From: Levilactobacillus huananensis
Lineage (GTDB): Bacteria; Bacillota; Bacilli; Lactobacillales; Lactobacillaceae
Assembly: GCF_003946145.1 (NCBI RefSeq)
Contig: NZ_RHOC01000002.1
Coordinates: 62,001-126,000 of the forward strand
Length of the DNA: 64,000 bases
Direction: 5' to 3'
How positions within the stretch are numbered: position 1 is the stretch's first letter; each line of letters starts with the position of its first letter. The notes under the pieces are model-generated. The model worked only from the letters and a program-made list of their open reading frames with translations. It had not been told where the DNA came from and made no database searches. The position numbers and the translations under genes were made by a program. Shown piece by piece: positions 26,034 through 31,360 of the stretch.

Positions 26034-26459
26034 ATGAAAATTAAGGGATCATACTGGTTACGTCAAGCCGGGGTTGGCTTGGTCATCGTCCTCATCATTG
26101 CCCTTCTTGGGCATTTGAACTATGCCCAGTGGCGGCTGATGCCGGGTATCACCGGCGCTGACTGGTATTTTTTAGTTAGTTGGTTATGTTTTCCATTTGC
26201 CAAGTGGGTAATTTTAGAAGATAACCGTGACGTCAAGGCCCCGACGATTCGGCGTAAACGTAAACGCCGGCGTCAGTCAGCCGATGAGACGGCTTCGATC
26301 TATGAAAAGATGGGCAAGTCCCAGCGCGAACCGCGGTTGGCCGCAGCACCCAAGACCGCTTTGAAGTGGTACTGGCGGGGGGTAATCGACATTGTAGTTG
26401 CCTTCGTGGGTCCCTTAATCTTGGGTGGGTACGTGACTTATTCGCTACGACACAATTAA
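26034..26459 (+). CDS. Unknown membrane protein with basic cytoplasmic loop
   Basis: This 141-residue protein is not recognised. Hydrophobic spans lie at about residues 12-27 (GVGLVIVLIIALLG), 43-58 and 118-135. Between the second and third is a very basic stretch IRRKRKRRRQS, which by the positive-inside rule should be cytoplasmic. AAAGG and AGGTGG precede the ATG. Its promoter must overlap the divergent greA-like gene. No function can be given. Confidence 0.7.
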   Translation: MKIKGSYWLRQAGVGLVIVLIIALLGHLNYAQWRLMPGITGADWYFLVSWLCFPFAKWVILEDNRDVKAPTIRRKRKRRRQSADETASIYEKMGKSQREPRLAAAPKTALKWYWRGVIDIVVAFVGPLILGGYVTYSLRHN

Positions 26460-26878: not shown

Positions 26879-26907
26879 TTGCAAGTCATCGCGATTCAAT
26901 ATATATT
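26879..26907 (+). promoter_or_regulatory. Promoter of the LytTR two-component operon
   Basis: TTGCAA (26879-26884) and TATATT (26902-26907) with a 17-bp spacer form a good housekeeping promoter 45 bp before the ATG. Confidence 0.75.
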
Positions 26908-26951: not shown

Positions 26952-27710
26952 ATGGTGTTAGCTGTGTATTTGTGTGAAGATAATCCGGAACAATTACAGC
27001 ACTACAGCGACGTGATTAAACGTTACATCATGATTAATGAGTATGACATGGTCGTTAATCTCGCCACGCCCAGCCCGCAGGAACTCTTAAACACACTGAA
27101 AGCGGATCCGCCGGCGTATGCCTTGTTCTTTCTTGATATTGAATTTCCTGCAGAGAAGACGAGTGGTCTGGAGACGGCGATTGCCATTAGAAAACTTCTA
27201 GGTTTTGCTGAAATTGTTTTTGTCACCACACATTCCGAAATGGCGCTACTTACCTTTGAACGGAAAGTAGAACCGATGGACTTTGTCGTCAAGGATTTGG
27301 GACGCACTCAGATTGACCAGAAGCTCCGTGAGAACATCGACTACGGTTATCAGCGCTACACGAATTATCTCGGAAATACCGAAAATCTCTTTAGTTATAG
27401 CATTGCTGGCCGAAGTTTTAGCTTACCCATGGGCGATGTGTACTTTGTGGCTACTGCGGAGACTCCCCACAAAGTGACCGTACACGCGGCCAATCAGTTA
27501 GTGGAGTTTCCAGGATTTCTAAAGGACATTGCTGACCAGTATCCGGATCTTTACCGAACTGACAAGAGTTTTCTGGTGAATCTCGACAATGTCAGTGGGA
27601 TTGATTCAGAGAACCGCCGATTGATTTTTCCTAATGGGGATGAGACAGACGTCGCGACTCGTCGCTTTCACGAGGTGAAAACGTTGGTACAGAAGCATTT
27701 AAAATCTTAA
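26952..27710 (+). CDS. LytTR-family response regulator
   Basis: This 252-residue protein has a receiver domain with acidic pocket E9-D10, phospho-acceptor D62 in FFLDIEF, the Thr of VFVTTHSE and the Lys of FVVKDL, followed by a C-terminal LytTR DNA-binding domain (about 140-250, with YRTDKSFLVNLDNV). This is the AgrA/PlnC type that controls quorum sensing or bacteriocin genes in lactic acid bacteria. ATG 26952 has AAAGGG about 6 bp upstream; the TTG at 26937 has no such site. Two kinase genes follow at once. No AgrD-like or double-glycine pheromone gene was found in the window, so the signal is unknown. Confidence 0.92.
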   Translation: MVLAVYLCEDNPEQLQHYSDVIKRYIMINEYDMVVNLATPSPQELLNTLKADPPAYALFFLDIEFPAEKTSGLETAIAIRKLLGFAEIVFVTTHSEMALLTFERKVEPMDFVVKDLGRTQIDQKLRENIDYGYQRYTNYLGNTENLFSYSIAGRSFSLPMGDVYFVATAETPHKVTVHAANQLVEFPGFLKDIADQYPDLYRTDKSFLVNLDNVSGIDSENRRLIFPNGDETDVATRRFHEVKTLVQKHLKS

Positions 27711-27722
27711 GAGGGTGCAGTG

Positions 27723-29051
27723 ATGGACGCCGTACTACAAGTCTTTGGACGTCAATTTTGGACAAATTTCGTGTTGGCAATGACCATGCAGTGGTTTCTC
27801 ACGACGTGGATCGGGCTTATCCGGCCCCAAAATTGGAAACTACCTCTGAAATGGGTAGGCTGGGCCCTGATCCCAGCCTTTATTGGGGAGCCGTGGAGTC
27901 TCTTTATTCCGCCGATCAGTGCCTTAGTCTATTTGATTCGGCACCGGCGACATTTGGCGTTGATTTTTGTCAATGCCACTATTGTGATCTTCTTAGTGGT
28001 GGTCTTGATTAACGATGTGGCCCGACAAGTAACGGTAGAGCTTTGGGGCCTAGGCGTTGCGGACGCGGCACCAACCATCGCGGGTCGGCTACTTTTTCAG
28101 CTGGTGATCTATACCCTGATCTCATTAGCCGTTTCAGGAATGCACATTCAGCCTGGGAACCTGACCAAATTAGCGTTGAGTCGTAAGGAACAGTGGACGG
28201 TTATGGCCATGCTAGCCAGCCTCACGGTGCTGGCGGAGATGTCGTCGCTCATCATTCACCACCTGAAAATTTCACATGCCATGCTGACGTTTTCCCTCAG
28301 CATTGAATTGGTGATGGTACTCCTGATCTCGGCGAGTCTCTTTGGCTTTCTTCAGAGTTTTTTCTCCCGGCAACGTATGCGGGCGAAGTATCAAAAAACG
28401 CTATTGCGGACGCGTTATGACCGGCGAATCTCCGATCAGGTCCAGGCCATTCGTCAGTTTAAGCAAACCTATCAGAAACAGATGCTTCAACTTGGAGATT
28501 ATTTGGATGCCGAGGATTATGACGGTCTGGCGGCATATTACGAGACTCTCAACAATCGCTGGCAAGCCACGAGTCACTTGGCCGGGCTGGAGGCAGATGG
28601 CCTTCAGCAACTCGGGGACCCTGCCTTAAAAAGTCTGTTGTTTCAGAAAATTCTGGCGGCTCAGAATCAAGGCCGAGACCTTCATCTGGAGATTCCAGAG
28701 GCCATCGTCAGTCTTCCTATGACCAGTATGGATTTGTTACGGATTGTGGGGATTCTATTGGATAACGCGATTGAAGCACCAGTTGTGGGCGATCGTTCCG
28801 ACATTCACTGTGCTTTTCTGGTGTACCCGAGTTCCTATGAAATCACGGTGGCTAATCCGGTCTCAACGACTAATCCGCCGAAGATTAACCATTTTCTGAA
28901 GGCCGGCTACACCACCAAGGGGAATGGCCACGGACAGGGGCTCAGCACCGTGAAGGAATTGATTGATCGAACCGAGAACGCTGCCCTACAGGTGGCCTTG
29001 AAACGCGGCATGTTGTACTTTACCGTGATTTTAACCAAGCCAGGGAGGTGA
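27723..29051 (+). CDS. HPK10-type sensor kinase lacking the phospho-acceptor His
   Basis: This 442-residue protein has six or so N-terminal membrane spans (to about residue 205) and a cytoplasmic HPK10 kinase part like AgrC/PlnB. The ATP-binding half is intact: N-box LLDNAIEA (N348) and G-box GNGHGQGLS (about 400-408). In the dimerisation helix, where HPK10 kinases have F-R-H-D-Y, this protein reads F-K-Q-T-Y: the phospho-acceptor His is Gln248. The helix is otherwise as expected, ending in LGDYLDAEDYDGLAAYYETL. It lies between the response regulator and a second kinase with the opposite defect. I infer that it can bind and use ATP but must phosphorylate another protein. Confidence 0.88.
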   Translation: MDAVLQVFGRQFWTNFVLAMTMQWFLTTWIGLIRPQNWKLPLKWVGWALIPAFIGEPWSLFIPPISALVYLIRHRRHLALIFVNATIVIFLVVVLINDVARQVTVELWGLGVADAAPTIAGRLLFQLVIYTLISLAVSGMHIQPGNLTKLALSRKEQWTVMAMLASLTVLAEMSSLIIHHLKISHAMLTFSLSIELVMVLLISASLFGFLQSFFSRQRMRAKYQKTLLRTRYDRRISDQVQAIRQFKQTYQKQMLQLGDYLDAEDYDGLAAYYETLNNRWQATSHLAGLEADGLQQLGDPALKSLLFQKILAAQNQGRDLHLEIPEAIVSLPMTSMDLLRIVGILLDNAIEAPVVGDRSDIHCAFLVYPSSYEITVANPVSTTNPPKINHFLKAGYTTKGNGHGQGLSTVKELIDRTENAALQVALKRGMLYFTVILTKPGR

Positions 29052-29055
29052 GCAC

Positions 29056-30378
29056 ATGATTACAGTGAGCATCTGGAGCTTTGCGGTCGCAGACTTCATG
29101 CTAATTTTTTGGTTTATCTATTTTCAATACTACTGGTTTCCAGAACTCCGGCAGAAACATTTTCTCACCTACTGTGCGGGGATGGCCGTTGGCTTTACCT
29201 TCCTGGATATCGTCAACCCTTTCACCGCGCGGAGTTCATTACTAGGGGCACTGGCGGTGGTGGTCATGCTAGTTATCGAGGTGGCCCTTCTCGGCAAGGA
29301 CAAACAGTGGCAGTATTTACCCGCCTTTATTGACGTGACCATTATGGCGTACCTCTTGACGGAATTCGTCGATATGGTGGTGTTGAATGGTATCATCTGG
29401 CTCACTAGCCTGAGTTTTGCGACCAGTTGGTGGGGGACGTTAACGGAAATGACGATCGATGCTGTCTTGTTTACCCTGCTGGCGATGGGGTTATGGTTGA
29501 CGCGAGCGCCAATGGAAAACCTCATTCAGGCCACATTGGGCCGGTCCATGGAGTATCTCTTCTTGATCTTTATGACCGGGATTGCGCTGGTGTACATTCT
29601 CTTCGAGTACTCCCTGCAAGAATTGGCCGATTCTGACCACTATCTGATCTTCTTGACGGGGGTGGCGGGGACACTACTGATTGGTCTCTCTTTAAGTACT
29701 TATATGTTGATGCTGACCCATTTACAAGAGGAACACACGCAGTTACAACGCCAACAACAGGAATTTCGTGAACAGTATACGCATGAGCTAAACCGGCAAA
29801 TGGCGGCTATTCGCAAGTTCAGCCACGACTACCAAAACATGTTGTTGGGATTAGGAGGTTATCTCGAGGATCAAGATTACGAGGGATTTCGGCAACTCTA
29901 TATCGACATTCGTTCGGGCTGGGAGACCAGTGATGCGGCGGAATTGACGATTGATGATCTGACCAATATTCCTGGTGATGGCTTGCGCTTCGACGTTTAC
30001 CATAACTATTTGGTGGCGCAGGAGGCCGGTGTTCAGCTGTTTATCAAGGTTCCAGAGCCGTTGACGGCGACCATTACGACCCTTAAACTGGTAGGGACGT
30101 TATTGAACCGGACACTGCCCCCACTGTTTGAAGGGGTGAAGCATCTGACGCCAGCCGTGGTGACACTGGACTTGGAAGAGACAGCACAAATGATTCGTTT
30201 CAAAGTAACCTTTCCTGTCCCGGATGATGCTCAAGTTGGCGGCCAGGCCCATGTTCAAAGCGCTCAGGCGGAGTTAGATTTGTCGCGTTTGCAGCGAGTT
30301 GTACCAACGAATGCGACGAGCACCTTGAAGCTAAAGCGGCATTGGGGACAATTGACGGTGGCCTTACCCAAAGGATAG
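29056..30378 (+). CDS. HPK10-type sensor protein with His but no ATP-binding motifs
   Basis: This 440-residue protein has about six N-terminal spans (to residue 220) and the dimerisation helix IRKFSHDYQNMLLGLGGYLED, in which H257 is the normal phospho-acceptor. The ATPase half is degenerate: where its neighbour has LLDNAIEA it reads LLNRTLPP, and no GxGxG box exists. It starts 5 bp after the preceding stop with GGGAGGTGAG upstream, so both are made together. The pair thus holds one working half each, which suggests an obligate heterodimer with phosphotransfer between chains (inference). Alternatively it is a binding-only receptor. Confidence 0.85.
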   Translation: MITVSIWSFAVADFMLIFWFIYFQYYWFPELRQKHFLTYCAGMAVGFTFLDIVNPFTARSSLLGALAVVVMLVIEVALLGKDKQWQYLPAFIDVTIMAYLLTEFVDMVVLNGIIWLTSLSFATSWWGTLTEMTIDAVLFTLLAMGLWLTRAPMENLIQATLGRSMEYLFLIFMTGIALVYILFEYSLQELADSDHYLIFLTGVAGTLLIGLSLSTYMLMLTHLQEEHTQLQRQQQEFREQYTHELNRQMAAIRKFSHDYQNMLLGLGGYLEDQDYEGFRQLYIDIRSGWETSDAAELTIDDLTNIPGDGLRFDVYHNYLVAQEAGVQLFIKVPEPLTATITTLKLVGTLLNRTLPPLFEGVKHLTPAVVTLDLEETAQMIRFKVTFPVPDDAQVGGQAHVQSAQAELDLSRLQRVVPTNATSTLKLKRHWGQLTVALPKG

Positions 30379-30464
30379 CCCAAGGCTTGAGCCATTCACA
30401 AAGTCGGGTCAACAGGTTGGTGGGTTTCACCAGAAAACAGTTATCGTTTCATTCCTGAAAACGC

Positions 30465-30492
30465 TTGCAATTATAGTCCCGTCTGCTATACT
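30465..30492 (+). promoter_or_regulatory. Strong promoter of the 30.5-kb RNA
   Basis: TTGCAA (30465-30470), a 16-bp spacer and TATACT (30487-30492) with TGC just before the -10. Confidence 0.75.
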
Positions 30493-30498
30493 TAATGA

Positions 30499-30769
30499 AT
30501 GTAATACCAATCAATCCTTCAGGGAAGTCGTAAAATGAGGAAGTTTTACGGATTCTCAACTTTGTGAAGTGGCCCTTACCGTCATGATGAGAGTTACTTT
30601 AATGGCTCGATTAGGTTCCCAACCTAATTGGGTAGAGTTGCTCAATAAAGATTACATATTGAGGTCTAGCAAGTCTGAGAGAACAGCGATTTCCTGACTA
30701 CAAACGGTGAAAACGTTGCGACTCAAAGCTACTAACTGGGAGCCGGAGCGTGGTTACTCCGGTTTTTTT
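30499..30769 (+). ncRNA. Candidate structured RNA between the LytTR operon and cytidine deaminase
   Basis: A strong promoter and an intrinsic terminator (CCGGAG 30743-30748 with CTCCGG 30757-30762, then T7) bracket about 270 nt with no gene. A hairpin CGTAAAA/TTTTACG lies near the 5' end. One ten-codon frame (MRKFYGFSTL) follows an AGGGAAG site and might be a leader peptide. It resembles the 26.5-kb element in size and layout, not clearly in sequence. It may be an independent RNA or a leader/attenuator for the deaminase 165 bp on. No known riboswitch motif was recognised. Confidence 0.45.
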
Positions 30770-30934
30770 GATCCCCAGCGAAAGGCAAAGCTAGGTGTTT
30801 TTAGTCCAGACGATCATTTTAATTGATGTGGACGTTTAGGTTGAGAGCCTGTGCGACGAAGGTGTCTTAGCGCTGACGGTCTATGGTGTTGTTAAGATTG
30901 CTAATGATGACTGAAGAAAGAACGGTGAGTGAAG

Positions 30935-31360
30935 ATGGCTATCTGGGAAGACCTGTATCAAGCTGCCAAGCCATACTATCATCCCACGGCGGTGAATGAG
31001 TTTATCTATACGCACAACGTGGTCTGTGCGCTACAAAGCAAATCCGGGAAAATCTATACTGGATACTGTGTCGAAGCATTGTCTGGCGTCTTGAACCTCT
31101 GTGCGGAACGGGTTGCCCTACTTCAAATGTATATGGATAGTGGTGAAACCGAGGTGCAGCGACTGATTGCCTTTCGAGATACGCCACCCAAAGGTAATGG
31201 CGGTATGCCTTGTGGCGCCTGTCGTGAGGCTTTCATGCAATATAACCAAGCCAATCAAGAGATGCAAATAATGGTGGATTATGCAAAACGAGAGACCTTA
31301 ACCCTGGGTGAGCTGATGCCTCATTGGTGGGGAACATCGGTAAAACCAGAATCAGATTAG
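30935..31360 (+). CDS. cdd: Cytidine deaminase-like protein
   Basis: This 141-residue protein has the zinc-deaminase signature: C-A-E in NLCAERVAL, with Glu as proton shuttle, and P-C-G-A-C in MPCGACREAF for the other zinc ligands. Size and motifs fit the tetrameric cytidine deaminases that turn cytidine to uridine in nucleoside salvage. Blasticidin-S-deaminase-like members have similar motifs, so the substrate is not certain. ATG 30935 is chosen as GGTGAG lies 7 bp upstream. It is a single-gene unit followed by a strong hairpin. Confidence 0.85.
   Translation: MAIWEDLYQAAKPYYHPTAVNEFIYTHNVVCALQSKSGKIYTGYCVEALSGVLNLCAERVALLQMYMDSGETEVQRLIAFRDTPPKGNGGMPCGACREAFMQYNQANQEMQIMVDYAKRETLTLGELMPHWWGTSVKPESD

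Follow-up and report, generated by a model that had tools for sequence, protein, structure and literature searches.

In Rhodobacter sphaeroides, neither CheA3 nor CheA4 autophosphorylates alone, and it is a mixture of the two that phosphorylates CheA3 (excerpts of PMC3591291). According to the same excerpts, modelling of this pair indicates that responses can become ultrasensitive or bistable when a bifunctional kinase is split, and a survey counted 1556 proteins without HATPase among 42417 HisKA proteins. Mixing of H-minus and ATP-minus mutants is a laboratory test of trans phosphorylation (excerpts of PMC12148442 and PMC5956149). A membrane-bound paralogous split pair did not appear among the matches listed from open-licence PMC papers. 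Within a 64,000-nucleotide stretch of the Levilactobacillus huananensis genome (the window; contig NZ_RHOC01000002.1, positions 62,001 to 126,000), we identified an operon for a response regulator (RR) and two sensor kinases, HK1 and HK2 (Table 1). We consider it likely that this operon encodes one two-component system whose sensor kinase is divided between two membrane-bound paralogues, and in which HK1 phosphorylates HK2, probably as a heterodimer.

Table 1. Features of the operon, in window coordinates.
Feature	Position	Strand	Remarks
Sigma70-like promoter of the operon: TTGCAA, 17 nt, TATATT	26879..26907	+	Found by eye; consensus match only
LytTR response regulator (AgrA-like)	26952..27710	+	Likely start ATG 26952; longest ORF from TTG 26937
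HK1, HPK10/AgrC-like sensor kinase, ATPase domain intact, no phospho-His	27723..29051	+	From ATG 27723
HK1 Gln248 codon CAA at the phospho-His site, motif FKQTY	28464..28466	+	Q24, R5, H5 in 34
HK1 N-box LLDNAIEA	28755..28778	+	D347, N348, A349, E351 in 34/34
HK1 G-box GNGHGQGL	28920..28943	+	G400, H403, G404, G406, L407 in 34/34
HK2, HPK10/AgrC-like, phospho-His helix intact, ATPase domain degenerate	29056..30378	+	From ATG 29056
HK2 FSHDYQN: phospho-acceptor His257 (29824-29826), Asp258, Asn261	29818..29838	+	F, H, D, Y, N invariant
HK2 LLNRTLPP at the N-box place	30100..30123	+	Catalytic Asn replaced: R10, Q8, E6, K5, A3, S1 in 33

The regulator has a receiver domain with a phospho-acceptor Asp and a LytTR domain (Response_reg, E 8.1e-8; LytTR, E 1.7e-14), in agreement with the earlier note, which had placed one LytTR regulator beside the kinases. 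It matches the AgrA model at E 4.9e-37, below the cut-off of that model. The Asp, in the motif (F/L)FLDIE, is present at all 33 loci with a visible N-terminal half (29 by pattern, 4 by eye). Genome G000 has four LytTR matches, and the regulator described here is the only one in an ORF of response-regulator size (257 aa). HK1 and HK2 are separated by 4 nt (29052-29055), rather than by the 5 bp first reported, and the HK1 stop codon falls within the ribosome-binding-like GGGAGGTGA of HK2. Of 34 such junctions, taken with longest-ORF starts, 21 have a gap of 4 nt and 8 have an overlap of the same length. The near-overlap of the two genes suggests that their synthesis is coupled.

An upstream alignment of 31 loci has ATTGCAA and TA.ATTA among the few runs conserved at 85% or more. 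A loose scan for LytTR-like direct repeats upstream of the regulator identified none in the window, and found them at 8 of 31 loci. Upstream, at 26034-26459, the window encodes a probable membrane protein of 141 aa without a Pfam match; at 28 of 34 loci, the operon has a gene of the same cluster beside it. Downstream, an intergenic stretch of 550 nt (30379-30928) lies between HK2 and a cytidine-deaminase-like gene. Rfam gave no match at gathering score between 24000 and 36000 of the window, and only one match, at chance level, in 30379-30940.

HK1 combines an AgrC-like transmembrane part with a GHKL ATPase domain that holds both N-box and G-box. HATPase_c_5 was matched in the window at E 6.7e-10, and a Pfam ATPase domain is present in all 34 HK1 orthologues. 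The comparison with AgrC that had been proposed for both kinases gave matches to the AgrC model (HK1, E 2.8e-39; HK2, E 2e-15; both below its strict cut-off) and, by profile, to the AgrC kinase module 6e52 (E 2.9e-35 and E 1.6e-9, respectively). In the window, HK1 lacks the phospho-acceptor His of the F-x-H-D-Y motif. The next position (249) is T in 14, I in 6, N in 6, L in 4, Q in 3 and R in 1 of the 34 orthologues, and never D or E. An acidic residue beside the phospho-His is generally required in the family. The +4 position (252) is K in 24, Q in 5, R in 2, D in 2 and G in 1 of the 34, and never N or T. Around these drifted sites, F246, Y250, Q251, Q253, M254 and L255 are invariant. Ranked by entropy among 85 DHp columns, the drifted sites (His site, next, +4) are 26th, 2nd and 21st; the acceptor-chemistry sites of HK1 vary, yet they are not uniquely variable.

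HK1 could instead be a DivL-like pseudokinase regulator, with a different kinase or acetyl phosphate as the phosphate source of HK2. Pseudo-histidine kinases that act as modulators have been described (excerpts of PMC12632262 and PMC9491836). However, a non-catalytic regulator would have no use for N348 or the G-box, and the ATP-site residues of HK1 are retained in 34 of 34 orthologues. Searches of genome G000 with HK1 and HK2 gave no other match, i.e., no third kinase, at E 0.001, which also speaks against this explanation; the two further PF14501 matches in this genome lie in ORFs 494 and 565 aa long. We consider a purely regulatory role of HK1 very unlikely.

HK2 has the complementary defect. 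We identified the phospho-acceptor His in F-x-H-D-Y, and F255, H257, D258, Y259 and N261 are present in 33 of 33 proteins, the residue statistics covering 33 of 34 genomes (L100 was left out as the HK2 frame is split there). HDYQN is present in 41 of 41 HK2-type ORFs holding the region; this count, like the kinase tree, includes the longer piece of the L100 HK2. The ATP site is missing, as neither N-box nor G-box was identified in the HK2 of the window, and none of 40 HK2-type proteins matched a Pfam ATPase (E 0.01) or any other Pfam domain. HDYQN also has the form of the HE/DxxN/T phosphatase motif that, in a split bifunctional kinase as defined in PMC3591291, lies on the ATPase-less protein, a likeness that concerns the presence of the motif only. 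In the AlphaFold models, which are of middling to low confidence (mean pLDDT 71 for HK2 and 63 for HK1) and from which the domain fold alone was used, the C-terminal domain of HK2 aligns with the AgrC ATP-binding domain 4bxi (E 4.5e-5, TM 0.74 by target length, rmsd 3.5, 13% identity). The fold is ATPase-like without the boxes, and has a gap in the lid region; the C-terminal domain of HK1 fits 4bxi better (TM 0.83). HK2 is thus predicted to retain the ATPase-domain fold despite loss of the N-box, the G-box and part of the lid.

The motifs that the earlier note had read in the two kinases are all present in these ORFs, including the LLNRTLPP of HK2 and its missing G-box. We also found no hidden alternative that would undo the complementary pattern: HK1 has no invariant cytoplasmic His among the orthologues other than H403 of the G-box (two further sites have His in 16/34 and in 18/34), and HK2 has no ATPase match.

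Loss of the acceptor in HK1 is not strict, as the site is His in five of the 34 orthologues (FTHNY in L073, L075, L076 and L077; FKHTY in L096). It may be that these HK1 forms have kinase activity, and that HK1 signals alone in the species concerned, the pair being elsewhere a drifting duplicate. However, all five lack the acidic neighbour and the +4 Asn or Thr, as does every other HK1 (0/34 for each), and HK2 remains HDYQN in the same five genomes. Parsimony places Gln at the root of the HK1 site, with five changes. Given this root and the missing acidic neighbour, the His-type HK1s look like one-base drift from Gln codons, and we find it highly improbable that HK1 acts on its own. Intact motifs in an orthologue had been named as a reason to doubt the split, and the five His residues count to that extent against it, although the rest of the acceptor motif was restored in none.

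Protein searches covered 58 genomes, of which 35 are from Levilactobacillus, the genus of the window; the relatives include L. humaensis, L. paucivorans, L. lindianensis and L. brevis. The split pair, which the earlier note had suggested looking for in related genomes, was identified in 34 of the 35, with one locus in each and with either kinase always accompanied by the other. Genome G006 (72% complete) had no match to HK1 or HK2. Gene order in the loci read is RR-HK1-HK2; the contig of L072 begins after the RR. The gene cluster of the 25472-25984 gene of the window lies upstream in 31 of 34 loci and that of the 31768-32661 gene downstream in 28 of 34, and the misses are mostly contig ends. 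We take these flanking genes to be greA-like and RluA-like, respectively. A mobile element is not favoured, given the sharing of these flanking clusters.

Median dN/dS values for the sensor, DHp and CA domains are 0.14, 0.12 and 0.10 in HK1 and 0.05, 0.08 and 0.10 in HK2 (pairs with 0.1<dS<1.5 only; 23-54 pairs per domain). Both kinases are under purifying selection. Mean identity among HK2 proteins is highest in the DHp (79%) and lowest in the CA domain (54%). Local decay or sequencing error was rejected as the source of the pattern, given its presence in nearly every genome of the genus and the low dN/dS. The complementary defects are therefore beyond chance, as they recur across the genus, mostly in the same neighbourhood where flanks were fetched, and 68 of 71 related ORFs from outside the genus are intact.

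Individual loci depart from the common layout. At L073:10620-12750 the RR gene is interrupted by an ORF of 391 aa on the opposite strand, presumably transposase-like, and the downstream HK1 and HK2 are open frames. On an L. brevis CD0817 contig (L092:6880-8704), ORFs of 429 and 156 aa, which we assume to be TnpB- and TnpA-like, separate RR from HK1 and may uncouple the operon there. HK2 at L100:9437-10754 and the regulator at L101:12578-13337 each consist of two overlapping frames, reflecting either error or decay.

A second HK2-type gene (HK3) follows HK2 in seven genomes (L095-L101). It encodes HDYQN and lacks the N-box. The third kinases do not form one clade in the tree, and the labels HK2 and HK3 were given by operon place and identity. 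In these seven species, one ATP subunit would serve two His subunits.

In the proposed mechanism, HK1 would bind ATP and act in trans on HK2, phosphorylating its His257; the two chains most likely meet in a heterodimer joined through the DHp helices that they share. Only HK2 would pass the phosphate on to the LytTR regulator, and with its HDxxN motif it may also be the only one to dephosphorylate the regulator. There would be no output unless both sensors acted together. An HK1-HK2 heterodimer is likely from the sequences, as the DHp helices are retained in both proteins and are more alike between them (30% identity) than the sensor and CA domains (16-17%). Some kinases work only in cis and show no complementation, e.g., MtrB H305Q with N419D (excerpts of PMC5956149); if HK1 and HK2 had such a geometry, the pair would be dead.

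The kinase could also be split without a heterodimer, with HK1 homodimers phosphorylating separate HK2 homodimers, much as CheA4 acts on CheA3. The motif evidence is the same for this arrangement, CheA3 and CheA4 provide a precedent, and the dimerisation domains show no coevolution: HK1-HK2 identity in the DHp is 0.296 within the same genome vs 0.290 between genomes. Co-assembly is weakly favoured over it by the full-length transmembrane and DHp regions of both proteins, by the DHp being the part most alike, and by the translational closeness of the genes. Separate homodimers thus seem unlikely to us. The earlier note had predicted that one chain supplies ATP catalysis and the other the phospho-His within an obligate heterodimer. 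The division of labour is upheld by complementary conservation and purifying selection; the obligate heterodimer is not, since HK1 homodimers acting on HK2 homodimers fit equally and there is no coevolution signal. For the heterodimeric split kinase in its most far-reaching form, we lean towards a genus-wide obligate heterodimer that arose by reciprocal loss and would act as an AND gate, with phosphotransfer and phosphatase activity confined to HK2 and, in the seven species with HK3, a second His-only partner sharing the single ATP subunit.

Outside the genus, we identified 71 distinct HPK10-like ORFs, at loci picked by similarity and not at random; 68 have all three motifs and three are fragments. 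L182, L225 and L226 have intact tandem kinases, and in L183 one of the two is a fragment. By reading and alignment, N-boxes are present in the kinases of Ligilactobacillus and Lactobacillus, save that of L144, which is truncated where its stretch ends. L225:4394-7149 (genome G372) encodes two tandem intact HPK10 kinases with near-identical cytoplasmic halves and different sensor halves, and an RR and a further kinase fragment are nearby. HK2-type relatives were not identified outside the genus, where the best match has E 1.1e-29 vs best matches of 6.1e-202 or better within the genus (two overlapping draws, with 25 genus genomes among 397 and 7 among 395).

In the trees, HK1 forms a clade (99/99) separate from that of HK2 and HK3 (100/100). 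These two clades join before other kinases (94/66), a grouping that is less than certain because the branches are long, and together they adjoin kinases of genus g22 (98/93). Genome G100 of this genus has the order RR-HK with one intact kinase, and its regulator is 39% identical to that of the window. The simplest history, judged from these sequences, would be duplication followed by reciprocal loss: an intact RR-HK pair may have been duplicated in the Levilactobacillus ancestor, after which each kinase copy would have lost what the other kept.

If our reading is correct, a pair of the H-minus/ATP-minus type has seemingly been fixed by evolution across a genus. It would be a natural system in which to study trans chemistry, obligate hetero-oligomerisation and phosphatase activity restricted to one partner, and a membrane-sensor example of a split bifunctional kinase, from a group to which the food species L. 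brevis belongs. Pairs of this kind are easy to overlook, because a Pfam scan shows no domain in the His-bearing half.

The system shares features with several that are known. RR-HK pairs of another Lactobacillaceae genus (G100 and G157) have the same RR-HK order, the closest kinases in the tree and regulators 36-39% identical to that of the window. Unlike the operon studied here, their locus holds a single kinase, which has all the motifs, and in G157 a second such kinase is encoded elsewhere. AgrC and AgrA of Staphylococcus aureus (HPK10 and LytTR) are similar in sequence and predicted fold to both kinases and in sequence to the regulator. A 2009 paper by Cisar is reportedly on AgrC dimers. 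In contrast to HK1 and HK2, AgrC is one protein that works as a dimer and has His239 and Gly394/Gly396 together (excerpts of PMC6755735). The peptide-processing protease AgrB of agr quorum sensing (PF04647) was identified in none of the 35 Levilactobacillus genomes at E 0.001, the control search having matched one of 14 genomes, with a match that fell short of the cut-off. For AgrD (PF05931), neither the 35 genomes of the genus nor the control genomes gave a match, so that this search does not bear on its presence.

In CheA3 and CheA4, as here, the ATPase and the phospho-His are on two proteins, and the CheA protein with the His is also a phosphatase; however, the CheAs miss whole domains, whereas HK1 and HK2 are full-length membrane sensors in which residues were lost (excerpts of PMC3591291). 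The split CheA of Synechocystis, Hik36/Hik43, also has HPt and catalytic parts on two proteins with one regulator, and contact between Hik36 and Hik43 was found by two-hybrid. It is a CheA homologue encoded by genes far apart, whereas HK1 and HK2 are AgrC-like and encoded in one operon (excerpts of PMC7656254). Split kinases are known in CheA, and what is different here is the occurrence of two full-length membrane sensors with reciprocal loss at the level of residues, in one operon and in one genus.
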